Virus record (IMG/VR): IMGVR_UViG_3300018933_000005
Coordinates: 1 to 60,076 of that record
DNA from: a virus
Strand: one strand, 5' to 3'
Length of the DNA: 60,076 nucleotides
Shown here: in pieces, positions 1,933 through 46,859 of the stretch
How positions within the stretch are numbered: position 1 is the stretch's first letter
Layout: each line of letters begins with the position of its first letter
Translations under genes and position numbers: made by a program
The notes under the pieces: generated by a model
Database searches by the model: none
Seen by the model: the letters and a program-made list of their open reading frames with translations, nothing else
Told to the model about the DNA's origin: nothing

Positions 1933-2008
1933 CGCTCTCCTTGTCGCGGTTCGGCTGAGTGCCGGGGCGCGGCCGAACCGCGACGAACACCCGCGCCCCG
2001 GCAGCTCA

Positions 2009-2779: not shown

Positions 2780-2838
2780 GGCGTCCTCCTCATGTCTCGA
2801 AGCAGGGTCAGGGGCGTCGCGGTTCGGCTATGCGGTTG

Positions 2839-3554: not shown

Positions 3555-3566
3555 GTCGGCCTCCTC

Positions 3567-4465: not shown

Positions 4466-4805
4466 CGGAGGCGGCCTTGGTCCGGGACGTGCGCGCCTTG
4501 TTCGACGTGGTGCGGGACTTGTTCTCCGCCGTGCCGGCCTTCTCCTCCGTTGTGGAAGGTGCGGTCGGCTGCTCACCGTCGATCGGGGTGGCGTCGTAGC
4601 GTTCGGCGTCGGCCTCGTTGAGCTTCATCACGGTCTTCCTGCCGCCCGGCAGCGTGACCTCGTACCTTTTCAGCGGTCCGCTCACGGCGGCCACCTCCCA
4701 TGTCTCGTCCACCGGCACGGACGCCGAGGGCGGGCCGCATGCGGCATGCGTTCCGCCGCAGATCGGGCACCGCCCTCGGACCGTCCGTGAGCTGATCAGG
4801 GTCAC
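4452..4805 (-). CDS. Small zinc-ribbon protein between capsid and connector
   Basis: 117 residues from a GTG at 4805 that overlaps the capsid stop (GTGA), so it is coupled to capsid translation. Residues ~14-25 contain CPICGGTHAAC, a short zinc-ribbon-like knuckle. The centre has a YEVTLPGGRKTVMKLNEADAERY strand-helix and the C-terminus is a low-complexity Lys/Thr/Ser-rich tail. The middle segment resembles small actinophage proteins found at this place. Whether it is a virion component is not visible from sequence. Confidence 0.75.
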   Translation of the reverse strand: MTLISSRTVRGRCPICGGTHAACGPPSASVPVDETWEVAAVSGPLKRYEVTLPGGRKTVMKLNEADAERYDATPIDGEQPTAPSTTEEKAGTAENKSRTTSNKARTSRTKAASGGDD

Positions 4806-6139
4806 GCTGTCAGGTCGATCTCGACGAACGCGCTGGGCTGGATGACGCCGAACGCGGCGCGCATCTCGGCGAGGATCGCCACCAGGTTCCGCACGAAGAA
4901 GTCTGCGTGCGAGTCGGTGACGGTGATGGACGCCTGCTCGCGGTCCCACAGCATCGCCTTGCGGAAATCGCCGACGTAGCCGGTACCGGCGGGGACCGCC
5001 TCGGTCTGGATGACCGGCAGCCCCCACAGTGCCGTCGCGGTGCCGGCCGCGCCCGGGCCGCCGAAGTAGAAGTCGGCGTTCCCGTTGACGGACAGGTCGA
5101 TGGACTCGACGTCGGCCGGGTTGAGCAGGTACGCGTTCGGCACGGAGCGGCCCACGGTGTAGACCTTGGTCTTGGCCTTGCGCAGGGTCCGCAGGCGCTG
5201 CATGTCCGCGCCGGTGCCGGTGGTGTCCCACGCCTGCGTCTGAATGCCGGAGACGTTGGCCAGGCCCTCGAAGTTCTCCCCGGTCCCGTCACCGGAGATC
5301 ATCTGGTCTTCGAGTTCCTCCTCCAGGCCGTAGCGCAGGAAGGAGTCGATGAGGGTGCGGATCTGCGCCGCATCACTCAGCGCACGCTTGGTGATCGGGA
5401 TCCAATGCGCGATCGTCCGCACCGGCGTGGTGACCTTCGCCACCGACAGCCCCGACTCCGGCTTGTAGCCGCCCCCGGCCGCCGGCACCAGCGCACCGGC
5501 CGTGCCCGGCGCCGTCGGGGCGTCCGCGGTCGTGGCCTCCGGCACCGGCGCGGCGTTGTTCGTCGTCGAGGTGACGCGCACGTACTCGATGGTGTCCGAG
5601 CCGGTGGTGCCGTTGGCGACCACGTCCCGCAGCCGCAGCGGGCGCTGGAACAGGTCCAGCCCCACCTGCAGGCCGCGGTAGTCGTTCTGCACGAACCCGC
5701 CGGCCGACGTGTCCGACGCGCCCGTAACCAGGCTCTTGTAGCTGGCGGGCATCGACTGCACGCGGGCCTTCGCGCCGAAACCGCCCCGCGGCGCGGTCGC
5801 CATCAGCCCCCGGTACGCCTCGCTCTTGACGAACGACTCGCCGAGGCTGCCGGCGGGAGGCGGCACGATCAGCCCGGAGGCGGTACGGCGCTCGCCGCCC
5901 TTCTCCTCGTTCAGGCCGATGCCCTCGCCGAGATCCTTCAGCGCCGAGCGCATCTCGCGGTCGGCCTTGGCCTTCTCCAGACCGGCCTTCGCCTCCTTGG
6001 CCTTGGCCATGTGCTCGGTGACCTGAGCCCGCTCATCGTCGGTGAAGTCGCGGTCCTCATCCTCCGCCTTCGTGGCGATGGCCTGAGCCTGCAGCAGGTG
6101 GTGCTTGAGCTGTTCCTTCAGCTCCTCGATCTTGTTCAC
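4802..6139 (-). CDS. Major capsid protein, HK97 fold, with N-terminal scaffolding (delta) domain
   Basis: 445 residues. Residues ~1-85 are a charged coiled coil (MNKIEELKEQLKHHLLQAQ... GLEKAKADREMRSAL), the delta domain that acts as built-in scaffold and is cut off by the prohead protease. The body shows HK97 gp5 features: DTSAGGFVQNDY, PLRLRDVVANG, TGSDTIEYVRVT, PVRTIAHWIPITKRALSDAAQIRTLI, MISGDGTGENFEGL and LMLW-like AMLWDREQASITVTDSHADFFVRN. Immediately downstream of the protease. Confidence 0.95.
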   Translation of the reverse strand: MNKIEELKEQLKHHLLQAQAIATKAEDEDRDFTDDERAQVTEHMAKAKEAKAGLEKAKADREMRSALKDLGEGIGLNEEKGGERRTASGLIVPPPAGSLGESFVKSEAYRGLMATAPRGGFGAKARVQSMPASYKSLVTGASDTSAGGFVQNDYRGLQVGLDLFQRPLRLRDVVANGTTGSDTIEYVRVTSTTNNAAPVPEATTADAPTAPGTAGALVPAAGGGYKPESGLSVAKVTTPVRTIAHWIPITKRALSDAAQIRTLIDSFLRYGLEEELEDQMISGDGTGENFEGLANVSGIQTQAWDTTGTGADMQRLRTLRKAKTKVYTVGRSVPNAYLLNPADVESIDLSVNGNADFYFGGPGAAGTATALWGLPVIQTEAVPAGTGYVGDFRKAMLWDREQASITVTDSHADFFVRNLVAILAEMRAAFGVIQPSAFVEIDLTA

Positions 6140-6147
6140 GTCTCTCC

Positions 6148-7005
6148 TCAGTCCGTGAGCGAAAGGGCCTCGACCGTCAGCAGGTCGAGGTCGGTGCGCA
6201 GACGGAGCGAGGCGGTTCCGGTCTTGGCGGCGCCGCGGGGCGCTTCGCGGAGATCCGGCGTGGTCTCGTCCTCAGTGCTGCTCGATGGGGTCTCCCGGTC
6301 ACCCTTGGCGGGCTGGGTGACCGCGGTCTGGGCGGAGGGCTGTTCGCCGTCGGCCGCCGCGGCTCCCGGCTGGCCGGGCTTCTCGGGCTTGCTGTTCTTC
6401 TCCGGCTCGGCGCTGGACAGCACCTCGCTGATCGCGTCGCGCGCCTCGACGAGGCGCTCGTAGTTCTTCTGGGACAGCACGCGTCCGGCCTTCACGCCGG
6501 ACGCTACGTGGGCGGCCTTCGCCGCGATCAGCTCGGTCTCCTGGTTGGCGCCCACCAGCGTGGGCCCCACCTCGTGGATCCGCAGCTTGCGCAGCTCGTA
6601 CACCTCGCGGCCGTCCCGCTCACCCCAGCCGCCGTCCTCGATGTCGTAGGCGAAGGAAAACTGGGTGACGCGGCGGCCCTTCAGCAGGCGGAAGACCTGC
6701 TGCGCCTTGGGATTGTCCATGTCCAGTTGGCCCGTGACCAGCAGGCCGCCGGCGGACTCGCGTGCCTCGACGACGTGCCCGATGTGGGAGAACGGGTCAC
6801 CCCAGTCGTGTGACCAGATCACCGGGATCGGGTCGCCCGAGTCCTTCCAGCGCGCCAGGTCCTCGGTGAAGGCGCCCGGCATGACCACGTCCCCGACGCT
6901 GTCCTCGTTGCCGAACACGCTCACCAGGGCGGTGAACTCCCCGGCCCCCAGTCCATCGCTCTCGCCAGCCGCCTTCACCCGCGCAGGGGCATCCTTCGTC
7001 AGCAC
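6148..7005 (-). CDS. Prohead maturation protease (HK97 gp4 / S78 family)
   Basis: 285 residues from a GTG at 7005. The N-terminal two thirds carry the protease fold: FTALVSVFGNEDSVGDVVMPGAF, then IWSHDW with the catalytic His at residue 66, and VTQFSFAYD with the nucleophile Ser at 117, followed by LRKLRIHEVGPTLVGAN. The C-terminal ~100 residues are low-complexity (Pro/Glu/Thr/Ser-rich) and may be a cleavable tail. It removes the capsid delta domain inside the prohead. It lies nine bases upstream of the capsid gene. Confidence 0.93.
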   Translation of the reverse strand: MLTKDAPARVKAAGESDGLGAGEFTALVSVFGNEDSVGDVVMPGAFTEDLARWKDSGDPIPVIWSHDWGDPFSHIGHVVEARESAGGLLVTGQLDMDNPKAQQVFRLLKGRRVTQFSFAYDIEDGGWGERDGREVYELRKLRIHEVGPTLVGANQETELIAAKAAHVASGVKAGRVLSQKNYERLVEARDAISEVLSSAEPEKNSKPEKPGQPGAAAADGEQPSAQTAVTQPAKGDRETPSSSTEDETTPDLREAPRGAAKTGTASLRLRTDLDLLTVEALSLTD

Positions 7006-7006
7006 G

Positions 7007-8944
7007 TCAGTCTCCCCTCGCGTAGTCGAGCGTGCATTTGCAGTTCACGAGCTCCTCCAGCCGACCCGAGCCATCCCCCGGCCAGCGCAGGCCGTTGCTG
7101 AAGACGTCATCCAGGCCGACGGTCTCCCCGTTCTGGGCCCGGTGCGACGGCCTGGGGTTCGCGCCGCCGGTCCGCCAGATCTTCTTCACCAGCCCGCTGG
7201 CCTTGGCCGCGTCATGGCCGCCGAAAGAGCGGACCTCCGTCGCCGCGGTCGCCGCCCGGACCCCGGACGCCACCACCCACGCCTCGGCCGCGGACCGCAG
7301 AGCATCCCGCCAGCCATCGGCCCCGGCGCCCTGCGCGGCGGCGACCGCCTCCCGGCCAGCCTCCTCGTGCTGGGCGGCGTGCGTCTCCGCCGCCGCCAGA
7401 ATCCAGGCGAGCATCACCTCGGCCGACCAGCCCTCGGCCTCCGGGTTCCAGGCGGACAGCACCTCCCACGCGCCGACCTGCGCTAGCCGGTAGCCGTGCT
7501 CGGCCAGCAGCGCCTCCAGTTGCGCCAGGCGCTCCTCCGACCCGGCCGCCCACAGCTCCAGCAGATCCGGTGCCCCGTCGGCCTTCGCGCCCGCGGACGC
7601 CAGCAGGCGATCCGCCTGCCGCTGCGTCCACCGCGTCAGCGTCTTGGCGAACGCCTTCTGCTCGCTGTCGAACTGCCCCAGATCAGAGGGCCTGGAGCTC
7701 TTCGCGAGCGCCAGGCCCCGCGCTTTTGGGGCCGCGTCCGCCGGATCTGGCGCCGTGTCCCGCGGGGACGCGAGGCCGCCCTCGGTGACGTTCAGCGGCG
7801 TGATCAGCGAATCGCCGCCCTCCACCTGCGGCAGATTGAACCGGGCGCGCTGCTCGTTGACCGTCATCCACGGCCGGCCCGTTGCCGTCGACGCCGCCGC
7901 GGCCTGCTCCTCGAAGGAGCCGCGCATCTTCTCGGCGATGTTGAACTCGACGTACACGTCCTGGCTGTCGGGCATGTCCGGCAGCAGTTGGGCGCCGATC
8001 TCCTGCTGGATCATCGTCAGCCACGGGCCGAGCGTGTCCTGGTACAGGATCTTGTGTTGTTCGGAGATGTTCGAGTAGGTGGCGTGGTCGAGGATCCCCA
8101 CCAGCGGCGGCGGGATGTGGTACGCCGCGGCCACCTCCTCCCGCGTCAGTTTCCGCGACTCGATGTACTGCGCCTGCTGCGGGTTGATCGCGATCGGCGT
8201 GTACACCATGCCGTCCTCCAGGATCGGCGTACCGCCCTCCGCGCCGCCCCCCTGGGCGAACGTCCGCCACATCTCCGAGAAGCGGCGCTTCGCCTCCGGC
8301 GACCACGGCTCCGCGTCCGCCGGCCGGGACAGCACGCCCGTCATCCGCGCGCCCGACTTCCACATCTGCGCCCGCTGCCTGGTCGCCTCCTGCTCCTCCA
8401 GCAGCAGCGCCCGCAGCGCATCGATCGGCGACGAGCCCGACCGCAGATCCTCGGGCGTGTACCCGTGGAAATACACCACCTCGTCCACGCCGAACTCCCG
8501 GCCGCCAGCGGTCTCGAAGTAGTCCGGGGCGATCCAGTTGCCGTCCGCCGGGCGGATCAGCGTCGGCGGAACCGGCAGCAGCCGCCGCTGTCCGGCAACG
8601 GTCAGCTTGATCCAGTACCCCACGTCGTAGATCGCCAGGTCCGACACCAGACGCTCGATGAGCCGGTACGTCGTAAACCTCGGCAGCGGCCCGGCCAGCA
8701 GCAGCGCCAGCGGGTGATCCGTCAACCGCTGGCGGTCCACGTCCGACACCCGCCGGAACACATGCAGCCCTAGCTGGGCGATGTTCCGCGCCAGAAAGGA
8801 GACCACGGTGCGGACCTGTGGCTGCGCCCGCCAGATCGCCGCATACTCCCACGGGGCCGCCACGCTCGCCGGGACCGAGGCGTAAGTCGCCAGCGGGCTC
8901 GGGCCCGTCAACTGCATCTGTCCGCCCGACATCACGAACGCCAT
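7007..8944 (-). CDS. Portal protein fused to MuF-type minor head protein
   Basis: 645 residues from an ATG at 8944 that overlaps the upstream stop (ATGA); longer readings of the frame are not supported. Residues ~1-430 are an HK97-type portal (YAAIWRAQPQVRTVVSFLARNIAQLGLHVFRR, DHPLALLL, DEVVYFHGYTPEDLRSGSSPIDALR, AAYHIPPPLVGIL). After a linker, the C-terminal ~200 residues end with a MuF signature: KIWRTGGANPRPSHRAQNG, then DVFSNGLRWPGD and LEELVNCKCTLDY. Usually these are two genes; here one polypeptide carries both. The portal forms the DNA gate at one vertex, and MuF domains enter the capsid. Confidence 0.9.
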   Translation of the reverse strand: MAFVMSGGQMQLTGPSPLATYASVPASVAAPWEYAAIWRAQPQVRTVVSFLARNIAQLGLHVFRRVSDVDRQRLTDHPLALLLAGPLPRFTTYRLIERLVSDLAIYDVGYWIKLTVAGQRRLLPVPPTLIRPADGNWIAPDYFETAGGREFGVDEVVYFHGYTPEDLRSGSSPIDALRALLLEEQEATRQRAQMWKSGARMTGVLSRPADAEPWSPEAKRRFSEMWRTFAQGGGAEGGTPILEDGMVYTPIAINPQQAQYIESRKLTREEVAAAYHIPPPLVGILDHATYSNISEQHKILYQDTLGPWLTMIQQEIGAQLLPDMPDSQDVYVEFNIAEKMRGSFEEQAAAASTATGRPWMTVNEQRARFNLPQVEGGDSLITPLNVTEGGLASPRDTAPDPADAAPKARGLALAKSSRPSDLGQFDSEQKAFAKTLTRWTQRQADRLLASAGAKADGAPDLLELWAAGSEERLAQLEALLAEHGYRLAQVGAWEVLSAWNPEAEGWSAEVMLAWILAAAETHAAQHEEAGREAVAAAQGAGADGWRDALRSAAEAWVVASGVRAATAATEVRSFGGHDAAKASGLVKKIWRTGGANPRPSHRAQNGETVGLDDVFSNGLRWPGDGSGRLEELVNCKCTLDYARGD

Positions 8945-9171
8945 CAGCCACCGCCTGCCGGGAGCACCTGGGTGAACTCCACCCGGGCGCGCTCGATGAC
9001 GACCTCGCCGTCCACCTTCTGCGGCTCCCGGCCGGCCTCCAGCAGCTCCGCATCCCGCAGCACCAGCAGCGGCCCGCGCTTTGCCCACAGCACCCCGGCG
9101 AACGCCTTGTCGGCCAGGTTCACCACCACGCGCCTGCGCACTGCGGTACGACGCCACGCGAACATGCCCAC
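8944..9171 (-). CDS. Small conserved protein between terminase and portal
   Basis: 75 residues from a GTG at 9171, or 73 from ATG at 9165 (MFAWRRTAVRRRVVVNLADKAFAGVLWAKRGPLLVLRDAELLE). The N-terminus is very basic and is followed by two predicted strands (VVNLADKAFAGVLW, GPLLVLRDAELL). Small proteins of this shape occur between terL and portal in many actinophages, often of unknown role. It overlaps the portal start by one base, so the two are coupled. Confidence 0.75.
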   Translation of the reverse strand: MGMFAWRRTAVRRRVVVNLADKAFAGVLWAKRGPLLVLRDAELLEAGREPQKVDGEVVIERARVEFTQVLPAGGG

Positions 9172-9176
9172 CCCCG

Positions 9177-10904
9177 TCAGACGATCATCATGTCGTCCTC
9201 GTCCTCATAGGCCGACCGCCGCTTCGGCGGGCGGGCCAGGATCTCCGACATCGCCGTCGCCAGTGCCGACACACCGTCGATCTTGTCTCCGGAGTTGGCC
9301 TTGTCCGGCTTCACGTTTCCCGCCGGGTCCATCGCGACCGCCAGGTTGTCCACACACCAGCGGGCCACCGGGTGCCCGCCGTGCCGCAGTGCCGGCGCCT
9401 CTGGCGTGCCCTGCAACACCAGCCGCTGCACCGCTTTCATCGCCGGGTTCATCGTCACGAACCCCTGCCGCACCTTGACCAGCGGCGCTCGCTCCGCAGT
9501 CAGCATCGTCGTCAGATGCGACGCGTTCCACGGGTCGTAGCCGATGGACTTGACCTTGAAGGCGTCTCGGTCCCGGCGGATCTGCTCGATGATGTAGTCG
9601 TAGTCCGCGACGTTCCCCGGCGTCGCCACCAGGAAGCCCTCGCGCACCCACCGCGATGCCGCCCCCGCGGTCCGCTTGTCCAGCGACCGGAGGTTCGCCT
9701 CCGGCGTCCAGAACCGCCAGATCGCATCCAGGGTGTCGTCCCGGTCGTTGGGGAACAGCCAGCACAGCGCACACAGGTCCGAGGTCGACGCAAGGTCCAG
9801 CCCTCCCCAGCACTCCCGGCCCTTCAGCGCCTGCTCGTCCACCAGGCCCGCGTTGTTGTCCCAGTCCTCCAGCCGAATGAACCGGGTGCTCTGCTTCGTG
9901 CGGATGCCCAGGTGGAGACGGAGGAACTTCGCCAGGTCTGCGGGGCTCTGCTGCGCCTCGGCCGCCGCACCCCGCAGGTACGCCGCCGACGGCGACACCC
10001 CGTACCCCGGGTTCGCCTTCCGCCACGTCTCCTCAGAGAACGGATCGTCCGACTCGTCCGCACCCCACACCACGCCGTAGGTGTCCGGGTCGTGCAGCGC
10101 CCTACGGGCCAGTTGCTCCACATACTGGCGACGCCGGTCGTAGATGGACTCCTGCTTGCCCTCATCCGCCGTCGTGATCGTCACCACAAGCGGCTGACGG
10201 CGCGAGCCCGTGCCCGTCTCGATCGTCTCCACCAGGTCCGGGGTCTTATGAACGTGGAGCTCGTCGATGATGCCGCCGTGGACGTTCGCCCCGTGCAAGG
10301 CCTCCGCCACCGAGGAGACCACCGTGAAGTACGAACCCGACGCCGGGTGCACGATCTTCTTCGTGAACGCCTTGACGTTGCCCTTCAGCGCCGGCGCCCG
10401 CTCCGCGATCGTGCGGATCGGGTCGAACGTGTAGCGGGCCTGCCGCTCGTTCGTCGCCGCCGCATACACCTGCGCGCCCGGCTCGCCGTCCGCCGCCATC
10501 AGGTACATGGCGATGCCACCGCTGAGGGTCGTCTTCCCGTTCCTCCTAGGAACGTCCACGTACAGCTTGCGGACGATCCGCACGTACCCCTCGGCCTCGT
10601 CGTCCCACCGCACCCAGCCGAAAACGGGGGCAATGATGTACGCCACCTGCCACGGGTCCGGGTCCAGCGGCTTCCCCGCCCACTTGCCCTGCGTGTGCCG
10701 CAGCAGGTGAAACGCTCGCAGCACCCGATCCACCCGCTCCGGATCGAACACCGCGCCCGACGCCTCCCCCGGCGACGGGGTCTGCACCTTCGGCGGGCAG
10801 TCCGGCAGCGGGATCCCGCGGGCCTCCAGATACCAGGCAACCTCCGGACTAATCCCCAGATCAGCCGGATCCGGAGCCCGCGAACGGGTTCGCTTCGTCG
10901 CCAT
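9177..10904 (-). CDS. terL: Terminase large subunit (packaging ATPase-nuclease)
   Basis: 575 residues. Residues ~118-126 contain the Walker A-type DVPRRNGKTT and ~209-215 the Walker B GGIIDELHV; an adenine-binding DPWQ motif lies upstream (LDPDPWQVAYII). The C-terminal half has the nuclease-domain acidic motifs (GGLDLASTSDL, KSIGYDPWNASH, DKIDGVSALATAMSE). This is a Terminase_1-type motor that cuts and pumps DNA into the prohead. It starts inside the end of terS (44-base overlap). Confidence 0.95.
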   Translation of the reverse strand: MATKRTRSRAPDPADLGISPEVAWYLEARGIPLPDCPPKVQTPSPGEASGAVFDPERVDRVLRAFHLLRHTQGKWAGKPLDPDPWQVAYIIAPVFGWVRWDDEAEGYVRIVRKLYVDVPRRNGKTTLSGGIAMYLMAADGEPGAQVYAAATNERQARYTFDPIRTIAERAPALKGNVKAFTKKIVHPASGSYFTVVSSVAEALHGANVHGGIIDELHVHKTPDLVETIETGTGSRRQPLVVTITTADEGKQESIYDRRRQYVEQLARRALHDPDTYGVVWGADESDDPFSEETWRKANPGYGVSPSAAYLRGAAAEAQQSPADLAKFLRLHLGIRTKQSTRFIRLEDWDNNAGLVDEQALKGRECWGGLDLASTSDLCALCWLFPNDRDDTLDAIWRFWTPEANLRSLDKRTAGAASRWVREGFLVATPGNVADYDYIIEQIRRDRDAFKVKSIGYDPWNASHLTTMLTAERAPLVKVRQGFVTMNPAMKAVQRLVLQGTPEAPALRHGGHPVARWCVDNLAVAMDPAGNVKPDKANSGDKIDGVSALATAMSEILARPPKRRSAYEDEDDMMIV

Positions 10905-11331
10905 CGTCGCCCCCGCCTCGCGCCAGGGCCTGCTCCGTCGACGGTGTCAGGCCGAAGTGGGCCGCCCACGCCCGCATCTCCCGGCCGGCGTTCCGGGCGA
11001 TCGCCACACACGGGTGCGCCAGCTTGCCCTGCCGCGCGTTGATGACCAGGCCCTCCTCCTGCACCACGCGCGTCGCCGCCACGAACGTCGCCCACGCCTC
11101 GCAGTACGCGGCCAACGCAGCCCGGTCCTGCTCCTTCACCAGATCCAGCCGGGACAGCTCCGGGATCACCCGGCGCCACTCCGCCTTCGCCTCAGCGCTC
11201 AGCCACGTCGGCGGCTTCGGCGGCACTCGCTTGAACGCCGGCCCCGACTCGACCTTCCGCCCGCCCGAGTCCCGGCCCGGCGACCGGCCGGAGATCAACT
11301 TCAGCTTCGCGGGGGCAGCGGCCTTGGCCAT
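10861..11331 (-). CDS. terS: Terminase small subunit, P27 family
   Basis: 156 residues. The ESGPAFKRVPPKPPTWLSAEAKAEWRRVIPELSRLDLVKEQDRAALAAYCEAWATF pattern followed by VVQEEGLVIN and HPCVAIARNAGREM is typical of the P27 small terminase family. It recognises the packaging site and recruits the large subunit. The neighbouring HNH gene upstream suggests a cos-type phage, where an HNH partner often assists cutting. Confidence 0.92.
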   Translation of the reverse strand: MAKAAAPAKLKLISGRSPGRDSGGRKVESGPAFKRVPPKPPTWLSAEAKAEWRRVIPELSRLDLVKEQDRAALAAYCEAWATFVAATRVVQEEGLVINARQGKLAHPCVAIARNAGREMRAWAAHFGLTPSTEQALARGGGDDGDEANPFAGSGSG

Positions 11332-11541
11332 GATGACCCCCTATCGGCGAGGTGAGCGTGTGCCTTCTGAGTTCACCGCGGCGCTGTCCGCAAGATCAGC
11401 GCCCGTGATTTCGACTCCCCTCCCCCCGTCGGCAAGGCTCTGACCTGCATAAACGCGCAATCCAGCCCCTCAGCAGGGCCTTGCTCACACAAAACCGCAG
11501 GTCAGAGCCCCACAAAGGGCGGAAGAGCCTGATCGACAGAA
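11332..11541. other. Non-coding spacer upstream of terS, candidate packaging or control region
   Basis: About 210 bases with no gene. It holds a 13-base perfect inverted repeat (11436..11448 and 11497..11509) whose core resembles the larger palindrome at 14529..14681. Being next to terS and an HNH gene, it is one place to look for cos, but nothing in the sequence proves that. Confidence 0.4.
11436..11509. repeat. Inverted repeat related to the palindrome downstream of the tra gene
   Basis: Arms GGCTCTGACCTGC (11436..11448) and its exact complement (11497..11509), 48 bases apart. The loop contains CCTTGCTCA and CAGCCCCT, words also present in the 14.5-14.7 kb cluster, which has near-identical outer arms (GGTCAGA/TCTGACC). 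The two elements enclose the HNH gene and six small genes. Confidence 0.7.
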
Positions 11542-11895
11542 TCAGAACGTCAGTCTGGAGCCACCAGGACGCGTCCGGTTGCGCCTGTCCTGTCCGCTCT
11601 TGATCTCGTGACAGTCCGTGCACAGTGACTGGACGTTCGCCGGATCCCACTTCGACCCGCCGTCGGACAGCGGACGGATGTGGTCCACCTCGGTGGCCAT
11701 GCGTCCACACCAACGGCACTGCGGTTCGAGCCTCAGCCGCTCCGCTCTGAACGCGCGCCACTTGCGCGTGCTGCCCTTGCCCCACGCCTTGGACCGGTTG
11801 GCCCACGCCTTCCGCTTGTGCGCATCGCAGCGCCCCTCGGTGGTCAGCTCGTAGCACCCAGGCTCCCCGCACCGGGAGGGGGGAGAGGTCGGCAC
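11542..11895 (-). CDS. HNH endonuclease next to terminase
   Basis: 117 residues. An N-terminal CGEPGCYEL...CDAHK zinc motif is followed by the HNH core CRWCGRMATEVDHIRPLSDGG, then NVQSLCTDCHEIKS. Both CxxC pairs and the catalytic DH are present. HNH proteins immediately upstream of terS in many cos-type phages stimulate terminase cleavage, which is the likely role here. A free-standing homing nuclease is the alternative, but the position favours packaging. Confidence 0.88.
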   Translation of the reverse strand: MPTSPPSRCGEPGCYELTTEGRCDAHKRKAWANRSKAWGKGSTRKWRAFRAERLRLEPQCRWCGRMATEVDHIRPLSDGGSKWDPANVQSLCTDCHEIKSGQDRRNRTRPGGSRLTF

Positions 11896-11940
11896 GGGGG
11901 CCTCCTCTCCCCGCAGGGGGCACCTTGCTACAGGGTGGCC

Positions 11941-12315
11941 CTACTCCTTGCTGACCCCGGTCGCCTCGCCGTTGACCATGGTGGCGAGGATGCGGGCCTG
12001 GGCTTCCTTCTTCGCCGGGACGGGGCACAGCATGACCTGATCGCCGTTCTCGATGGTGATGAACAACTGGTTCATGTCCTTCTTGATCAGCAGCGCGAAC
12101 ACCCCGGTAAGAAGGACACGAGTCGCTGTGACCCGCTTCCCTGCCTCCTCGCCTCGCTCGATGGTGATACGCGCCCCGTCGACGGGGACGGGCTCCTGGT
12201 TGGGCGCGCGGAACTTGCCTCCCATGACGGTGAGGCCGGCCGCTGCCGCCGCGGCGGTGATCTGCCGCATGCGCTTCGCTGCGGCCTTCTCCTCGTCGTT
12301 CTTCTTGCCGAACAT
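11941..12315 (-). CDS. Unknown protein, actinophage type
   Basis: 124 residues from an ATG at 12315 preceded by a GGGGGGA ribosome site; the frame is open upstream but that part lacks coding character. It starts with a charged helix (MFGKKNDEEKAAAKRMRQITAAAAAAG), then a small beta-rich domain (LTVMGGKFRAPNQEPVPVDGARITIERGEEAGKRVTATRVLLTGVFALLIKKDMNQLFITIENGDQVMLCPVP, given in outline). No family recognised. A PH-like fold would fit the strand pattern. Confidence 0.7.
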   Translation of the reverse strand: MFGKKNDEEKAAAKRMRQITAAAAAAGLTVMGGKFRAPNQEPVPVDGARITIERGEEAGKRVTATRVLLTGVFALLIKKDMNQLFITIENGDQVMLCPVPAKKEAQARILATMVNGEATGVSKE

Positions 12316-12439
12316 GATCCCCCCCACGGGATGGCGCTGATGACCGGGCCATCCTGCACGACCTAGCGTCAGCGCGCGGGGCGTTCGCTCGAAGTAGGCC
12401 CGCCCCAGCGGGTGAATCCGCCGGGGTGGGAGCATGGGT

Positions 12440-12474
12440 GCCTGCTGCCCGGGCGCCCAGACCGGGCAACAGGC
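12440..12474. terminator. Hairpin terminator
   Basis: Arms 12440..12452 and 12462..12474 pair over 12 of 13 bases around a 9-base loop. It lies between the genes at 12518..12784 and 11941..12315, both minus strand. Confidence 0.5.
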
Positions 12475-12517
12475 GGCGCCACCGCCGGGGGGACCGCGGG
12501 GCGCGCTGAGGGGAGGG

Positions 12518-12784
12518 TCAAGCGTCGTCGCTCGCCACGTCAGCGCGGGCCCGGGTGAGCGCGTAGTCGAGGAGCCCCATCAGTCGGTGGTACGGCACAC
12601 CTCCGCCGATCGGGACCACCGTGGCGACCTGGGTGCTGGCTCCCTCGTGGTCGTAGCGCTGCCGGGAGGCGACAAGAACCCATTCGGTAAGGACGCCGTC
12701 ACTGCCCTCCAGCCGGAGAACGTCCTCGATCGCCGCCTCCAGCCGCTGGTACGCGGCCTTGAGTTCCGCCGACGGCTCGGACAC
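12518..12784 (-). CDS. Conserved small actinophage protein
   Basis: 88 residues. An N-terminal helix (AELKAAYQRLEAAIEDVLRLEG) is followed by VLTEWVLVASRQRYDHEGASTQVATVVPIGGGVPYHRLMGLLDYALTRARAD. I know close relatives from many actinophages near the terminase or early genes, always without assigned function. The stop is followed by a hairpin. Confidence 0.75.
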   Translation of the reverse strand: MSEPSAELKAAYQRLEAAIEDVLRLEGSDGVLTEWVLVASRQRYDHEGASTQVATVVPIGGGVPYHRLMGLLDYALTRARADVASDDA

Positions 12785-12802
12785 GACCGGCCCCCTTCCG
12801 GG

Positions 12803-13075
12803 TCAGGCGGGCTCGTAGGTCTGCTCGAAGATGTCCGGCTTGCAGAGGTAGTACTCACCCTGGACGCCTCGGATGATCCAGTCACCGACGGAGGCCGTCA
12901 TGTCGCCTTCGAGGGTGTGGATGACGATGCCGTCGTGTAGGCCGCGACCGGGTCCGGGGAGCTTGGTCTCCTCGACCTTGCCGGTCTGCCCCATGAAGGC
13001 GGCGATTTCATCGCGGTTGGTGCCGTCGTAGCGGATGGCCTCGACCTCGACGGGCTTCTTGCGGTAGCGGCCCAC
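12803..13075 (-). CDS. Conserved phage protein of the 'KPVEVEAIRY / GDWIIRG' family
   Basis: 90 residues from a GTG at 13075 (VGRYRKKPVEVEAIRYDG). The end GDWIIRGVQGEYYLCKPDIFEQTYEPA is the hallmark of a very widespread small phage family with no assigned role. Upstream open frame is shadow. Its neighbours are other short conserved phage genes spaced by less than 25 bases, so they are one operon. Confidence 0.85.
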   Translation of the reverse strand: MGRYRKKPVEVEAIRYDGTNRDEIAAFMGQTGKVEETKLPGPGRGLHDGIVIHTLEGDMTASVGDWIIRGVQGEYYLCKPDIFEQTYEPA

Positions 13076-13092
13076 AGCCGCCTCCTTCCGGG

Positions 13093-13317
13093 TCAGGCGG
13101 CTTTGCGGCCTTCGGGCAGCGGGGGCGGGTCGCCGAGAATGACCTCGTCGGTCCACTCGTCCACGATCTTCCGCGGGAGTTCGTCCAGGTCGTACCGCAC
13201 GGCCTTGCCGCTGCCGTAGCGGGTGATGCGACCTTCCGACGCCCAGCGCCAGATCGTGCCGACCGGCCGGCCCGTGTAGTGGGCGGCTTCTGCCGCAGTG
13301 ACGAGGATGGGAGGCAT
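13093..13317 (-). CDS. Helix-turn-helix (excisionase/MerR-like) protein
   Basis: 74 residues from an ATG at 13317, preceded by GGGAGGTG. The LVTAAEAAHYTGRPVGTIWRWASEGRITRYGSGKAVRYDLDELPRKI stretch is the winged helix of the AlpA/Xis-like HTH_17 type. The GTG six bases earlier lies inside the ribosome site and is less likely. It may regulate the head operon or act as an accessory recombination factor; a second excisionase-like gene lies at 42575..42931. Confidence 0.8.
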   Translation of the reverse strand: MPPILVTAAEAAHYTGRPVGTIWRWASEGRITRYGSGKAVRYDLDELPRKIVDEWTDEVILGDPPPLPEGRKAA

Positions 13318-13339
13318 GCTCACCTCCCTGAATGACGAA

Positions 13340-13363
13340 GGGCCACCCGGTGTGGGGTGGCCC
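13340..13363. terminator. Hairpin terminator
   Basis: Perfect 9-base arms GGGCCACCC (13340..13348) and GGGTGGCCC (13355..13363) around a 6-base loop, between two minus-strand genes. Confidence 0.65.
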
Positions 13364-13438
13364 TGTCGACAAAAGTTCTAGTGGATCACAGCGTGCCTTC
13401 GGTGACCGGGAGCTGTCAAGCAAGGACGCGGCGAGTCG

Positions 13439-13990
13439 TCACAGCGCCCCGAGCACCGCCAGCAGCTTCCGTGTGCCGGCGGGCCCCCAGTCGGGGCAGA
13501 CCACGGTGATCTGCTGGGCGCGCTCGATGGCCCGGCAGGCGTCGCGGTGGACGACGCCAGACCAGATGTTCCGCAGGTCCCGGACGGGGAGACGCCCACC
13601 GAACCAGGTGAAGTCCTGGCCGCCGACCATGGTGCAGGGCATCCGCTCGTCCTCGATGACGCGGCAGCCGTGGCGGGAGGCGGCGCGGCGGATGCGGTCG
13701 GCGACCGCGGGTTCGGCGAAGCCGCACACGGCGGCCCGCTGCTGCCAGCGCTCCCCGTTGTGGCCGCGACCGTCGCTGCCGGGCTGGGAGTTCCAGGTCA
13801 GGTAGCCGGCCCGGTTGGCGGCGGCGAGCTGCGGCATCAGCTCCCGGGTCTCCTCATCCGGGCCGCAGCCCGGGGTGTAGCCGGGCTGGGAGCCGATCCG
13901 GCCCTCCAGCCAGCAGGCGGTCAACTGGCCTAGGTCGGCGAGGGTGCGGGCCTCGGCCCACAGCTTGCGGTCGGGGCGGGGCATGCGCAT
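13439..13990 (-). CDS. DUF6919-like protein
   Basis: 183 residues. The TLADLGQLTACWLEGRIGSQPGY, AANRAGYLTWNSQPG and RAAVCGFAEP motifs match what I know as the DUF6919 family of Streptomyces plasmids, islands and phages. The C-terminal part (NIWSGVVHRDACRAIERAQQITVVCPDWGPAGTRKLLAVL) is also typical. No biochemical role is known to me. It belongs to a two-gene group with the DUF6197-like gene upstream. Confidence 0.75.
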   Translation of the reverse strand: MRMPRPDRKLWAEARTLADLGQLTACWLEGRIGSQPGYTPGCGPDEETRELMPQLAAANRAGYLTWNSQPGSDGRGHNGERWQQRAAVCGFAEPAVADRIRRAASRHGCRVIEDERMPCTMVGGQDFTWFGGRLPVRDLRNIWSGVVHRDACRAIERAQQITVVCPDWGPAGTRKLLAVLGAL

Positions 13991-14012
13991 GGTCTTCTCC
14001 TTCGGTGGTGGG

Positions 14013-14492
14013 TCAGGCGGCGTCGGCGGCGGCTTCGTCGAGGAGCCGGGCGGCCATGCGGCCGTCCCGGATCAAGCGGTCGTTGGCGGCGGGCACGGTC
14101 TCCACGTCGGGCCCGAACTCGCGGCGGATCGCGTCGAGCAGCACCCGGCACGCGTCGTCGGCCACTCCCCCGCCTTCGGCCTCGGCGCGGATCGCGCCGA
14201 TGAGGCACACCCGGCCCTGCTCGTCGCGCAACCGCCCGCTGCACCAGCCGCCCTCGACCCGGCGCGCGGCCCGCCACAGGCAGACGGCCACCGGGGCGGT
14301 GTACGGGCAGGGAGGCGGCTCGGTGGCCGGCAGCTCAACCGGGAGCCGGATCACGTCGGCCAGGTCCAGCCCGGTGGTCTGGATCCGGGCGTCGACGGCG
14401 AGGGCGGCCAGAGCGAGGCGGTCGTCGAAGCCGAGCGGCTCGGCGGGGGTGCGGGTGCGGGTCGGAGGGGCGGTCAGGGCGGGCGCGAGCAT
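14013..14492 (-). CDS. DUF6197-like protein
   Basis: 159 residues. The WCSGRLRDEQGRVCLIGAIRAEAEG motif is the core of the DUF6197 family found in Streptomyces plasmids and phages. An LDLADVIRLPVEL stretch precedes it. It is the first gene downstream of the octamer cluster at 14529..14681, which may contain its promoter or operator. Confidence 0.75.
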   Translation of the reverse strand: MLAPALTAPPTRTRTPAEPLGFDDRLALAALAVDARIQTTGLDLADVIRLPVELPATEPPPCPYTAPVAVCLWRAARRVEGGWCSGRLRDEQGRVCLIGAIRAEAEGGGVADDACRVLLDAIRREFGPDVETVPAANDRLIRDGRMAARLLDEAAADAA

Positions 14493-14528
14493 GATCGGAC
14501 TCCTTGGGGACGTTTCGGGTGATTTCGG

Positions 14529-14681
14529 GTGCTCAGCGGCATGGCGGTGCTGCTCCGCCGCAGGTCAGAACTGCTCAGCTCCTTGCTCAGGGGCTGCTCA
14601 GAGCAGATCCTGAGCAAGGCTTGAGCAGCCCCTTGAGCAGCTCTGACCTGCGGGGATTCATCGCCGAGCAGAGCTGAGCAG
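14529..14681. repeat. Palindromic cluster of eight TGCTCAR octamers, clt/TRS-like
   Basis: Four copies of NTGCTCAG start at 14529, 14571, 14583 and 14594. Four in the opposite orientation (YTGAGCAR) start at 14610, 14621, 14633 and 14674. Outer arms CCGCAGGTCAGA (14558..14569) and its exact complement (14642..14653) make the whole cluster nearly symmetric around 14605. It lies 22 bases beyond the tra stop, in the only long gap nearby. In Streptomyces conjugative plasmids the TraB binding locus (clt) is a cluster of 8-base repeats at the 3' end of traB, so this is a candidate clt; an origin or operator is an alternative. Confidence 0.7.
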
Positions 14682-14703
14682 GGGGATGATCAGGGCATAA
14701 CGG

Positions 14704-16830
14704 TCACAGGACGCGGGCCAGCACGTCCCGCTTGAAGCCCCGCGGGTTGGCCATCCCGTCCAGCGGGCCGAGCGTCACCGGCTTCCCGACACCGGCCTCG
14801 GCGAACAGTTCCTTCAGGCCGTCCGGCGTCAGGTCGCCGTAGGCGCCCGGGTCGTGCCCGGCGAGCGCGGCGACGAGAGTCTCGGTGCGCATCCGGTCCA
14901 CCCCGGCCTTGTCCATCAGATCGACGGCATCGGCCACCACAGCCGTGGACAGTCGGTCCACCGCCCCGGCTGGCGGCTCGGCACCACACAGCTTCAAGAG
15001 CTGCTCCCACGTGAGGAGCTCCACAGGCGCCTCGCGCTTGAGGTTGCCCTCAGCGTCGAAGACGGGCTCGACGTACTCCGGCAGATCCACCTCGGCCATA
15101 GCGTTCAGGCTGTCCTGGTCGGGCTCGACCAGTCCGGCCTCGCGGCGCTCGGCAGCGAGCTTCTTCAACGTCGCGGACGACACCTCGTGAACGGCGTACT
15201 CGATCGGCTCATCGGCCATGCCGGGCACGCCCTGGATGTAGATGTGGCCGGCGTCCTTGGGGTCGGTGTCGGTAGCCGGGGACAGGCGGTGCGGCAGCCA
15301 GCCCTCATTGACGGCGCCGTCGCCGAACACGGCGCGGGTGTCGCCGACCTTGCAGGGCCCGACGGCCTTGAGGGCGATCATCTGGGCGATGTTCTCCCCC
15401 AGGTAGAGCTTGGTGCCGCCCTGGGAGGCGATCTCAACGTCGATGAGTTCCTTGCGCCCGACGAGCAGCAGGTCGAACGCCAGCTTCTTCGCCAGCTCGG
15501 ATGCCTTCGGGAACTCATCGAAGAAGATCGTGACAGCCGGGTGCTCGGGGCTGGCCTTCCACTTCCTGCCCATGCCGAGCTTCTTGCGCAGCCGGGCGCG
15601 GGCCTTGGACATCACGAGGAAGAACAGCAGGACCGCCTCGATCTGCTCGTGGGTGCGGGCGGTGATCCGCACCGCGTCGTGGAGGTCTTCCAGACCGTCC
15701 CCGTGGGGGTCGAGGTCGATGGTGATGTTGTCGTAGCAGGCCGTGGTGCCTTCGGCGAGGGCCTGGAGGATGCCGGTCTTGCCACCACCGGACGCGGCGA
15801 CGATCAGACCCATCACCCCGGCAAGGGAAACCTCCAGCGGATCGCCGCCGACGGAGGTGCCGATGCGGAACCGGTCGGTGATGGACATGGACTTCGGGGC
15901 CCGGTAGGGCAGGCTGGGCGCGGAGGCGAACGGGTCGCCAGAGACGAGCCGCAGCACCGCGCAGGCACGCCGCTCGACCATGGGCTGCGGCCGGACGCCG
16001 TTCTGCGGCAGGTCGAAGCGGGTCTCCAGATCGCCCGCAACCTTGATGATGGCCTCGGGGGTGCCTTCGGAGACACGGACAACGCACTGCCAGCCCCACG
16101 GGTGCTGCACGACGTCGCTGACATCGGCGACGGGCACGCCTTCGGCGAGGAGGGCCAGCAGCACGCACATGGCGGCCTGCTCGGGGGTCTGGGCGTGGGC
16201 GATGGGGAACGGCTTGGCGCCTTCGGGGAGCTGATCGACGGTCATGACGCCGGAGCGCGGGGCAGCAGAGCCTTCGGGGAGGGGCTGCGGCATGAAGGAC
16301 GGCCCGGCCCCGGCCTGGTTGTGGTCGCGGCCGTGCCAGACGCCGACGGTGTAGTAGGCGGCGGCGAGGAGGAGGTCGATCCACAGGCTGCCGGTGACGG
16401 CGGCGACACCGGTGCCGACAGCGACCGGGGCGCCCCAGGCAGCGGTCAAGCCGGCGTGGATGAGGCGGTGGCGCCGGTACTCCTCGCGGCGGGCGGTGAG
16501 GATCGCCCGCTGCTTCGACTCCTCGTTCACGTCGCCGGCGGCGGCCTTGAGGGCGGTCTTGGCGGAGCGGATCATCTGCGGGTAGTCGTCGCGGTGGGCG
16601 TCGAGCCAGCGGCGGCCGAGGCGGGCGTAGCCGCGGGCGGCGTGCGGGAGGCGGGCGCGGCGGGCGACGGTGGCGGCGCGCTCGGCGAGGACCCGGCTGG
16701 AGTGGATCCAGGAGGGGGCGGTGTCGTGCTTCTCGACGACCGCCCCCACGGCCGGCTCGGGGGCGTCCTTCACGAGGGTCAGGACCGGGCGCTGCTCGCC
16801 GGTCTCCGGGGTGTAGGGGGCGGTGGTCAT
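14704..16830 (-). CDS. FtsK/SpoIIIE-type DNA translocase (TraB-like)
   Basis: 708 residues. An N-terminal region with a hydrophobic membrane segment (~residues 130-170) is followed by a motor domain with Walker A ASGGGKTG (~347) and Walker B TIFFDEF (~433). The C-terminal ~130 residues include a helical DNA-binding-like region (QLLKLCGAEPPAGAVDRLSTAVV...). It resembles the Tra proteins of Streptomyces conjugative plasmids and AICEs, which move double-stranded DNA between mycelial compartments. Next to it are a DUF2637-like membrane protein and an octamer cluster. In this phage it could pump phage DNA during conjugation-like spread, segregation or entry. Confidence 0.85.
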   Translation of the reverse strand: MTTAPYTPETGEQRPVLTLVKDAPEPAVGAVVEKHDTAPSWIHSSRVLAERAATVARRARLPHAARGYARLGRRWLDAHRDDYPQMIRSAKTALKAAAGDVNEESKQRAILTARREEYRRHRLIHAGLTAAWGAPVAVGTGVAAVTGSLWIDLLLAAAYYTVGVWHGRDHNQAGAGPSFMPQPLPEGSAAPRSGVMTVDQLPEGAKPFPIAHAQTPEQAAMCVLLALLAEGVPVADVSDVVQHPWGWQCVVRVSEGTPEAIIKVAGDLETRFDLPQNGVRPQPMVERRACAVLRLVSGDPFASAPSLPYRAPKSMSITDRFRIGTSVGGDPLEVSLAGVMGLIVAASGGGKTGILQALAEGTTACYDNITIDLDPHGDGLEDLHDAVRITARTHEQIEAVLLFFLVMSKARARLRKKLGMGRKWKASPEHPAVTIFFDEFPKASELAKKLAFDLLLVGRKELIDVEIASQGGTKLYLGENIAQMIALKAVGPCKVGDTRAVFGDGAVNEGWLPHRLSPATDTDPKDAGHIYIQGVPGMADEPIEYAVHEVSSATLKKLAAERREAGLVEPDQDSLNAMAEVDLPEYVEPVFDAEGNLKREAPVELLTWEQLLKLCGAEPPAGAVDRLSTAVVADAVDLMDKAGVDRMRTETLVAALAGHDPGAYGDLTPDGLKELFAEAGVGKPVTLGPLDGMANPRGFKRDVLARVL

Positions 16831-16845
16831 GGTGGTGTCTCCGGA

Positions 16846-17967
16846 TCAGTGGTGGTGGCCGTTGACGGCCATGTGCTGGCGGGCGGTGTCGGCGGCGGCG
16901 GCCTTCGCGAGGGGGTGGAAGGGGACGCTGTCGTTCTTGGTGCGGCGGTGCGGCGGGGGCTGCCTGCGGGCCGCCTTCTTGGGGGTCTTCTCGGGCTTGC
17001 TGGAGGAGGGGGGGAGATCGGTAACGACCTGCGGCTTCTTGATCCTCGGAGCGGCCTTCCCGGGAGGCGTCGGCAGCACGAACCCGGACGCCCTCAGACG
17101 CGTCTGGATACGCTCGCGGATCTCGTCCTCGGTGGGCTGCGTACCGGTCTTCGCGGCCTCCAGGGCGATGGCTGACTCGGCGGCCTGGGCGTACAGCTCG
17201 GGCGTCATGCCCGGCATGCGGGTGCCGTACTTGATCTCCCAGGCGGTGGCGAACGCCTCCTCGTAGGAGAGGGTTCCGTAGGGGGCGGCGGACACGAGCC
17301 GGTCGGCGAGCTTCACGGCCGCGCGGTGCTGACGCCGCCGCTTCCGCTCGTGCTTGGCACGCTTCTTCTCCTCGGCGCGCTTGCGGGGGTCGCCGGTCGC
17401 GGCGGACAAGGTCATGACCCACTGCCGCACCTCGAAGAAGAGGGGCCCGAGCATGCTGACGGCTGCGAGGCCCCAGCCGACGAGCGCGCTCTCCTCGGCG
17501 CCGTGGATGTAGTTGATGCGGGCTTCGAACGCTGCGGCGGCGACGCAGAAGGCCCGCAGCAGCCACCGCACCCAGGCGGGGAGCTTCTTCTCATCCGCGT
17601 AGGCAACGCCGGCGGCCATCACCCAGGCGGCACCCGTCAGGGCGAACGGCACCGGCAGCAGCATCAGCGACTTGTCGACGAAGTAGGCGATCTGCGCGGG
17701 CAGGGCCGCGGCGGCGGACGCGGCGACCAGGGCGAGGGTGCCCTTGCGGTAGACGTTGGCGGGGGTGAGGGCCTTCTCCCGGCGGGCGGCACGGGCGGCC
17801 TTGCGCTGGGCCCGCTCACGACGCTGCTGCGCCTTCTCGGCCCGCTTCTCTTCACGGGCGGCACGCCGCTCCTCGCGGGCCAGTTCGGCGCGGTGCCTCT
17901 CGTCCAGGCGGCGCTGCTCGGCCTCGGCGACCTTGTCGGCACGCCGCTCCTCGTACCAGTTGCTCAT
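16846..17967 (-). CDS. DUF2637-like membrane protein, partner of the translocase
   Basis: 373 residues. Residues 1-70 are an extremely charged Arg/Glu/Ala-rich helix. Four hydrophobic segments follow at about 77-100, 102-125, 132-150 and 156-175 (AAALPAQIAYFVDK, MLLPVPFALTGAAWVMAAGVAYA, AFCVAAAAFEARINYIHG, WGLAAVSMLGPLFFEVRQ), the DUF2637 pattern. The C-terminal half is soluble, basic and Pro-rich. In Streptomyces plasmids such proteins are encoded next to traB and thought to help spreading. It lies 15 bases upstream of the translocase gene, so the two form one operon. Confidence 0.8.
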   Translation of the reverse strand: MSNWYEERRADKVAEAEQRRLDERHRAELAREERRAAREEKRAEKAQQRRERAQRKAARAARREKALTPANVYRKGTLALVAASAAAALPAQIAYFVDKSLMLLPVPFALTGAAWVMAAGVAYADEKKLPAWVRWLLRAFCVAAAAFEARINYIHGAEESALVGWGLAAVSMLGPLFFEVRQWVMTLSAATGDPRKRAEEKKRAKHERKRRRQHRAAVKLADRLVSAAPYGTLSYEEAFATAWEIKYGTRMPGMTPELYAQAAESAIALEAAKTGTQPTEDEIRERIQTRLRASGFVLPTPPGKAAPRIKKPQVVTDLPPSSSKPEKTPKKAARRQPPPHRRTKNDSVPFHPLAKAAAADTARQHMAVNGHHH

Positions 17968-44279: not shown

Positions 44280-45539
44280 GTGGCATACGCAGAGCCGCGC
44301 GGCAAGGGCAGAGACGGGAAGATGCGCTACCGCGGCCGGTACAAGCTCCCGAACGGCAAGTACGGGTCAGTCAGCAGGGACGACAACGGGCAGCCCTTCT
44401 ACACCAAGAAGCAGGCCCGGCAGTACGCGGCCGGCCTGGAAGTCGACGTCCGCCGCAAGACGTTCATCAACCCGCGCGACGGGCGGATCACCGTCGAGGA
44501 GTGGGCCGGGCTGTGGCTGGAGTCCATCGACGTCGGCCCGTTGACGGAGAAGGACTACCGGCTGCGGCTGAGGAACCAGATCCTCCCGGAGTGGGGGCAG
44601 GCGGCAGTCGGCGACTTGGCGCCAGTGGCCATCGCCACGTGGGAGAAGAGGCTCCGTACCCGGGTCAGCAAGAACTACGCCGACGGGGTCATGTCCGTGT
44701 TCCGCACCATGCTGGAGGATGCGGTCGCCTCCCGGATCCGGGCGGACAACCCGGTCGCCGCCCGCAAGTCCGGGCGGCGCGGGAAGTTCAAGCCCAAGCC
44801 GAAGGAGAAGAAGGTCATCGCCACGCCGCGGCAGGCGCTGCTGATCGCCCGCAACGGTCTGGCGATGTACGGGCTGAACGAGTACGCGCTGGTGCTCACC
44901 GCGGCCTACACGGGCCTGCGGATCGGGGAGCTGGCCGGCCTGCACCGCAGCCAGCTCGCCCTGGAGGACACCGGTGCCGGGGCGCGGATCCACGCGCTCC
45001 ACCAGGCCCAGTATGTCGACGGCAAGCTGATCCAGATGGATGCGAAGTACGGGTCGGCACGAGGGCTGATCATCCCCCCGTTCCTGGCGGAGCTGCTGCA
45101 CGATCTGGTGGAGTCCCGGCCGCACGGGGAGTGGGTGTTCACCGCACCGAAGGGCGGCCGGCTGCTGCGGAGCGGGGACTGGTACACCGACATCTGGGGT
45201 CCGATGATCCACGGCCGTCCGTACCGGCCGGTGGTGCGCGGGGCGAAGGCCCGCCCTGCGGTGCGTCCGGTGCTGGGCGTGGCGGGGCTGACGCCGCACG
45301 GGCTGCGGCACTCCCACAAGGTGTGGCTGGACGAGGACGGGCACCCGCGGGTGGCGGTGGAGGAGCGGATGGGGCACACGCTCCAGGGCGTGGAGGGCAT
45401 CTACTCGCACACGACGCTGGCGATGGAGCTGAAGATCGCCGAGTCGCTGCAGACGCGGTGGGAGGAGTCGCTGCGGCCGGTGATCGACCGGCGCGAGTAC
45501 GGCCCGGCACCGGCCGCGGTTTCCTCCGCCGCTAGTTGA
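44280..45539 (+). CDS. int: Tyrosine-type integrase
   Basis: 419 residues from a GTG at 44280 with GGGGTG upstream. An N-terminal arm-binding part (MRYRGRYKLPNGKYGSVSRDDNGQPFYTKKQA) and a SAM-like core-binding domain (~70-165) precede the catalytic domain: Arg ~213 in TGLRIGEL, His340/Arg343 in HGLRHSH, the His of GHTLQ, and the nucleophile Tyr375 in GIYSH. It acts on the attP just downstream. A hairpin terminator is at 45928. Confidence 0.95.
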   Translation: MAYAEPRGKGRDGKMRYRGRYKLPNGKYGSVSRDDNGQPFYTKKQARQYAAGLEVDVRRKTFINPRDGRITVEEWAGLWLESIDVGPLTEKDYRLRLRNQILPEWGQAAVGDLAPVAIATWEKRLRTRVSKNYADGVMSVFRTMLEDAVASRIRADNPVAARKSGRRGKFKPKPKEKKVIATPRQALLIARNGLAMYGLNEYALVLTAAYTGLRIGELAGLHRSQLALEDTGAGARIHALHQAQYVDGKLIQMDAKYGSARGLIIPPFLAELLHDLVESRPHGEWVFTAPKGGRLLRSGDWYTDIWGPMIHGRPYRPVVRGAKARPAVRPVLGVAGLTPHGLRHSHKVWLDEDGHPRVAVEERMGHTLQGVEGIYSHTTLAMELKIAESLQTRWEESLRPVIDRREYGPAPAAVSSAAS

Positions 45540-46247: not shown

Positions 46248-46859
46248 GTGGAAGCGCCGTATCAGCGGCTCGCCACCGAGCTGCGCCGCCGCATCGACGC
46301 CGCAGAGTGGCCGCCCGGTGCCCGCTTCCCGTCCATCGCCGCCCTGTCTGCCGAGTACGGCGTGGACCGCGGCATCGTCCAGCGGGCGCTCGGCGTGCTG
46401 CGCCGCGCGGGCCTCCTCGAAGGCCGGCCTGGGGCCCGGTTGACGGTGGCCTACCCTGCGGCCGTGCGGACGCTGACGGATCCGGACGCTCCCTGGCCGT
46501 ACCGGCTGGGCGATGTGGCGCGGGGTGCGGTTCGGGCGACGGAGGAGCTCGCGGCCCGGCTCGGGCTGGAGCGGCGCCTGCTGCTGCACTGGGAGCGGGC
46601 GGAGCTGCTGGACCCGGACGGGCGGCCGGCGATGCTGCTCACCTGCTGGTGGCGCGGGGCCGCTCGGGCGCACACCGCGGTGCGGTGCGAGTTGCGGCCT
46701 CACCAGATGACCACCACGGAGGCCGCGGCGCTCGGCCTGGCGGCGGGCATGCCGGCGCTGCTGGTGGAGCGCACGCGTGTGGATGCGGCGGGTCGCCCAG
46801 TCCAGACTGCTGATCTCGTCCTCCCTGCTGACCGGTGGCGGGTGAGTCTGAGCCTGTAG
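46248..46859 (+). CDS. GntR-family regulator (HutC/UTRA-like)
   Basis: 203 residues from a GTG at 46248 with CGGGAGC upstream. YQRLATELRRRIDAAEWPPGARFPSIAALSAEYGVDRGIVQRALGVLRRAGLLEGRPGARLTV is the GntR winged helix. The C-terminal part (AARLGLERRLLLHWERAELLDPDGRPAMLLTCWW ... ALLVERTRVDAAGRPVQTADLVLPADRWRVSLSL) is a short UTRA-type sensor. This type is common in Streptomyces conjugative elements (KorSA-like), where it controls transfer and replication genes. Outside the main early operon, near attP. Confidence 0.85.
   Translation: MEAPYQRLATELRRRIDAAEWPPGARFPSIAALSAEYGVDRGIVQRALGVLRRAGLLEGRPGARLTVAYPAAVRTLTDPDAPWPYRLGDVARGAVRATEELAARLGLERRLLLHWERAELLDPDGRPAMLLTCWWRGAARAHTAVRCELRPHQMTTTEAAALGLAAGMPALLVERTRVDAAGRPVQTADLVLPADRWRVSLSL

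Follow-up and report, generated by a model that had tools for sequence, protein, structure and literature searches.

The window, meaning the whole 60,076-base stretch of DNA analysed here, is a virus record that, judging by its genes, represents a tailed temperate phage. Profile matches identified terminase, head protease, capsid, tape measure and endolysin genes as well as an integrase and an excisionase, in agreement with the first-pass annotation, which had placed the motor gene in a phage with capsid, tail and lysis functions. A search for closure of the window into a circle through the tape-measure frame gave no clear closure. The features to which the text refers are the following (L numbers below are locus handles):

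4802..6139, minus strand: major capsid protein (phrog_10, E 1e-58), marking a real phage
9177..10904, minus strand: terminase large subunit (phrog_9, E 2e-149), likewise marking a real phage
14530..14680, no single strand: palindromic array of eight TGCTCAR sites (exact count), four on the plus strand and then four on the minus strand
14560..14651, no single strand: 92-bp inner frame of the array, GCAGGTC...GACCTGC, an imperfect palindrome; the frame is also found in plasmid pFP1
14704..16830, minus strand: open reading frame for an FtsK/SpoIIIE-like DNA translocase (the motor) of 708 aa (phrog_12531, E 4e-73)
14707..14958, minus strand: predicted C-terminal winged-helix domain of the motor, residues 625-708 (AlphaFold pLDDT 87)
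14773..14775, minus strand: codon for Thr686, the candidate specificity residue, first among all positions in mutual information with the array core
15772-15798, minus strand: Walker A motif of the motor, AASGGGKT, kept in relatives
16846..17967, minus strand: membrane protein of 373 aa with three to four hydrophobic segments by hydropathy, distantly DUF2637-like
44280..45539, plus strand: integrase of the tyrosine recombinase family, marking a temperate phage
46257..46445, plus strand: GntR-family DNA-binding domain, a candidate regulator

Besides the integrase, a second tyrosine recombinase, XerC/D-like (E ~1e-33), is encoded at 48431-49462. A small excisionase/MerR-like helix-turn-helix protein is encoded at 13093-13323, slightly past the array, and is a possible alternative binder. 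Inside a replication/HNH gene, CAGTGA repeats at 12-bp steps occupy 32319-32486 and likely represent an origin of replication.

The open reading frames that the first-pass annotation had singled out for the translocase and the membrane protein are present as claimed. Its description of the former as an FtsK/TraB-like motor stands on the phrog_12531 match, but the motor had no match in Pfam or NCBIfam and did not reach FtsK_SpoIIIE (PF01580). Walker B (IFFDE) is kept in relatives as Walker A is, and with these motifs the protein is an FtsK/SpoIIIE-type ATPase such as drives the TraB-clt systems of Streptomyces plasmids. As to an N-terminal membrane segment of the TraB kind, hydropathy gave a single clear hydrophobic stretch near residues 136-154. 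A sequence search of solved structures with the motor returned nothing real, and the full-length AlphaFold model was too poor for use. Structure prediction of the C-terminal domain, which had been proposed as a check, gave a winged helix; its VIA-align matches lie at Z 6-7 overall, with Rex-type winged helices at Z 7.3 over 69 residues, and Foldseek found no match below E 0.2. Because this reading depends on Z scores that are only moderate, we have moderate confidence that the motor, like TraB, ends in a winged-helix DNA-binding domain.

The membrane protein had been called DUF2637-like. Neither it nor its phage relatives matched Pfam DUF2637 (PF10935), but in profile-profile comparison the phage protein aligned at 95-99% probability to a pFP1 protein that in turn matches PF10935 weakly (E 0.002). 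It is thus the profile comparison that supplies the label.

The array spans 24-174 bp beyond the motor stop codon, the motor lying on the minus strand, so that it agrees with TraB-clt systems, where short sites are repeated at the 3' end of the motor gene or shortly beyond. TGCTCAR occurs 17 times in the whole window against 9.8 expected (sd 3.0), whereas ~0.025 sites would be expected in the 151 bp that hold eight (Poisson ~3e-18, far outside chance), and nowhere in the window is a 6-mer cluster denser. The eight sites of the palindrome are as first described; the leading N of the octamer is uninformative, and the core is TGCTCA.

A search of other actinophages for the gene trio had been proposed. 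Searching with the motor protein, we obtained 14 loci from IMG/VR and 8 from Streptomyces genomes, with a few elements represented in both collections; apart from L022, whose match is distant and partial, there are 21 full-length relatives. In all 21 the array follows directly on the motor stop, whereas the gene that comes next varies. The length of the frame GCAGGTC...GACCTGC is nearly constant at 91-92 bp in most relatives, and 31 arrays align without a gap. The arrays of L012 and L020 are degenerate. Searching IMG/VR by DNA pattern only, we found 30 array loci, 28 of which had a motor just ahead of the array; eight of these 28 motors belong to a second clade, 33-36% identical to the window motor. 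The pattern was also found in 8 of 393 Streptomyces genomes, with the motor present at eight of nine loci. One candidate array locus, L068, was rejected as a chance pattern match within unrelated coding sequence. A terminase is encoded by 8 of the 10 phage records tested and an HK97-type capsid protein by 15 of 17. The array is common to many Streptomyces temperate phages and not peculiar to the window phage. All five phages tested, the window phage included, encode a regulator of the GntR family, to which the tra repressors of such Streptomyces plasmids belong.

Motors with TGCTA arrays occur in both clades (L102, L107). Those of L170-L177, which are 52-64% identical to L102 and so nearer clade 2, have an unrelated-looking C-terminus and the core CCGTCTA; scans of IMG/VR for arrays with GCGATGG or GTGTCA cores gave chance matches only. 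In the clade 2 motors L043, L046, L044 and L061 the Walker A motif is degenerate (GVSGAAKTT), the Gly that usually precedes Lys being replaced by Ala.

Many lytic phages that carry the motor but not the octamer cluster had been named as evidence that would count against a clt-like role, and this is partly the case. BE-cluster lytic Streptomyces phages encode a related motor (37% identity over 57%), and behind that of Bordeaux (gp109), the one BE-cluster phage examined, no array was found, as the next gene overlaps the stop. However, the C-terminal domain of the BE-cluster motor differs, being ~22% identical to that of the window. The clt claim is thus limited to array-bearing lineages rather than refuted.

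Relatives of the motor at ~30-50% identity are also encoded by 47 Streptomyces and Kitasatospora plasmids, many of which have a phased palindromic array past the motor stop that follows the same plan with other cores: CCGATC in L026, L028 and L037-L040, TCTAC in pFP1 and L029, and CCTGCC in L041. As the generic 6-mer density test is weak in GC-rich plasmids, we tested instead for the GACCTGC box; 10 of 16 plasmids have it within 200 bp past the stop, whereas chance predicts 1.1. Plasmids L025, L027, L032 and L036 had no clear array after the motor. A DUF2637 protein lies ahead of the motor in several plasmid relatives. A close parallel is pFP1, which, like the window, has a motor of the same family (phrog_12531, E 6e-103), the frame GCAGGTCA...TGACCTGC and a DUF2637-type protein upstream, but which differs in its core and C-terminus and in being a plasmid without a capsid. 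Its translocase (frame L030:3726-6530), the sole FtsK/SpoIIIE-type gene that we found in pFP1, additionally has an FtsK_gamma domain near the N-terminus (E 3e-17) besides its own C-terminus. Zhang et al., in 2008, are said to have shown that pFP1 traB works in transfer.

We then compared the motors with their arrays. The two phage clades have a common core, and their mean identity is 33% in the motor versus 43% in the C-terminal domain; between the phages and the plasmid group, where the cores differ, the corresponding values are 40% versus 19%. By these comparisons, the array tracks the predicted C-terminal winged-helix domain and not the motor domain. In a smaller set we had noticed that the wing residue before LG or IG (residue 686) varies with the core, and the sample was then enlarged, by searches with the C-terminal domain and two further motors, to 66 distinct phage motors. 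Thr at this position goes with a ...TCA core in 37 of 39 motors and with ...TCG in the other two (L007, L009), Pro with ...TCG in 13 of 13, and Gln with GCTA in 5 of 5; two motors combine a PSGIG wing with ...TCG, and seven combine the other domain with CCGTCTA. The Pro and Gln changes appear in both clades, with L084 and L107/L010/L111/L119 as the cases of clade 1 and the L044 group and L102 as those of clade 2. Residue and core agreed in 50 of 52 cases, whereas shuffling labels within motor clades reached a maximum of 42 in 20,000 shuffles, a contrast that overstates independence since the motor sequences are related. Residue 686 was the position most informative on the core (1.02 of 1.22 bits, the next position giving 0.77), although it had been picked on part of the same data. 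For these two reasons we regard it as a strong lead, rather than proof, for a core-specificity code.

Arrays also occur on elements that have no motor of their own. L083 (G054:C21:4000-23000, positions 1622-16415) is 14.7 kb long and lies in a Streptomyces chromosome, bounded by exact 45-bp repeats at a tRNA-Arg gene; it carries genes for an integrase, a capsid protein, a helicase/primase-like protein and a GntR regulator. We found neither terminase nor tail genes in the part of it that was scanned, and no motor in the genome that carries it. At ~7940-8720 it has three adjacent arrays with the cores TGCTA, TGCTCA and GCGATGG, or four if the GTACCG cluster near another GACCTGC box is counted. 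L087 (IMGVR_UViG_2918501144_000001; 17.7 kb) has terminase genes but lacks the motor, and between 10540 and 10960 carries a mixed TGCTCA/TGCTA array, a GTGTCA cluster and a CCGTCTA-like cluster, the last resembling the CCGTCTA array of the motor of phage L175. From the IMG number in the record names, L087 and L175 appear to come from the same host genome. The plain alternative is that a motorless element is a decayed prophage that lost its motor, but this leaves the side-by-side multiple cores unexplained; the simplest reading is that such elements carry address sites for the pumps of helpers. There is a parallel in mobilizable plasmids with several oriT sites (PMC11389934), and stacked arrays on motorless elements would, if the reading is true, be a new form of helper hijacking.

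In pSVH1, the C-terminal winged helix of TraB reads 8-bp repeats (PMC3583192, PMC4170104), and in pWTY27 a clt adjacent to tra is required for transfer (PMC3583192). Like these systems (TraB-clt of pSVH1 and pIJ101, TraA-clt of pWTY27), the window combines a single FtsK-like motor, with a predicted C-terminal winged helix, with repeated short sites at the end of its gene; it differs in that its system sits in a capsid-bearing temperate phage and is known here from sequence alone, and in that its sites form a framed palindrome with TGCTCA and variants as core. Known clt sites are mostly direct repeats, and the palindrome counts against the likeness. The chromosome translocases FtsK and SpoIIIE are of the same motor class and, with KOPS and SRS, use a winged helix to read 8-bp sites, but those sites are chromosomal, dispersed and oriented rather than gathered in one palindromic cluster beside the gene.

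The adjacency of the array to the motor, the plan held in common with plasmids, the co-variation of C-terminus and core, the unpaired spacers and the stacked arrays of motorless elements together argue that the array is very probably the loading site of the motor. Counting against this are the related motors that have no clear array (the BE phages; L025, L027, L032), the pairing of Thr686 with ...TCG in L007 and L009, and the degenerate arrays of L012 and L020. From the parts, their order and fixed spacing, their sharing with plasmids and the co-variation, we infer a sequence of binding, assembly, pumping and transfer. The C-terminal winged helix would read the ~6-8-bp sites of the array, a recognition step in which we have high confidence, with residue 686 in the wing helping to decide which core is read. 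The phased sites would then gather several copies of the motor, which, associated with the membrane, would pump the double-stranded DNA of the phage across membranes. We think it probable that the array acts in cis as loading site of the neighbouring translocase in the way that clt serves TraB. The most likely use would be the passage of the phage genome, once excised, through septa or from hypha to hypha, as in plasmids, and we put the chance that transfer or hyphal spread is the purpose of the pump at about even.

It is unlikely that motor and array instead serve segregation, the motor moving or resolving the phage genome at septa as FtsK does, possibly together with the XerC/D-like recombinase. 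Xer recombinases are partners of FtsK, a gene of this type is present in the window, and sporulation septa close over DNA in Streptomyces; however, the gene was found in just 1 of 11 related records and is thus not conserved with the motor, on which ground Xer-FtsK dimer resolution was rejected, and the array adjoins the motor, not a recombination site. Plasmid relatives, too, have the pair of motor and array. We consider it very improbable that the array is a replication origin or the operator of another protein, for example the helix-turn-helix protein at 13093-13323. Iterons and cooperative operators typically consist of phased repeats, but the window has its separate iteron-like cluster inside the replication gene, the genes past the array differ among relatives, and the array varies in step with the C-terminus of the motor itself. 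There is equally little likelihood that terminase reads the array as a packaging (pac/cos) site. Satellites do borrow packaging sites, and arrays are present on two motorless elements that have phage genes; yet across phages the distance between array and terminase gene ranges from 4 to 21 kb, whereas the array always adjoins the motor, the window terminase is not common to most relatives at the protein level, and similar arrays occur in plasmids, so that terminase binding is unlikely. An RNA hairpin or terminator, suggested by a near-perfect dyad in intergenic space, was rejected as scarcely credible because in 31 aligned arrays only the sites match, the spacers pairing at 31% against 35% for shuffled partners.

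Taken together, the position of the array just past the motor gene, shared by many other phages and by plasmids, and its co-variation with the C-terminal domain support the clt idea of the first-pass annotation, which was right in what it observed and largely right about a clt-like mode of action, and whose interpretation as a whole is partly supported. In the literature searched, we found no description of the phage-borne lineage, of the candidate specificity code or of arrays stacked on elements without a motor. Surveys of such elements based on PF01580 (PMC3218068) would have missed a motor of the window type, which that profile does not reach. The natural variation would amount to an existing specificity code for a DNA pump, for the study of which one small domain and short DNA probes suffice. 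More tentatively, and at somewhat less than even odds, we propose that many Streptomyces temperate phages, a large group, have two ways to spread, as virions and through TraB-type hyphal pumping, with a simple residue-to-core specificity code and with motorless phage satellites that stack arrays for the pumps of several helpers. If this is true, phages of mycelial bacteria would gain a second, non-lytic route of spread, and a whole lineage, not one oddity, would cross the border between phages and conjugative elements.
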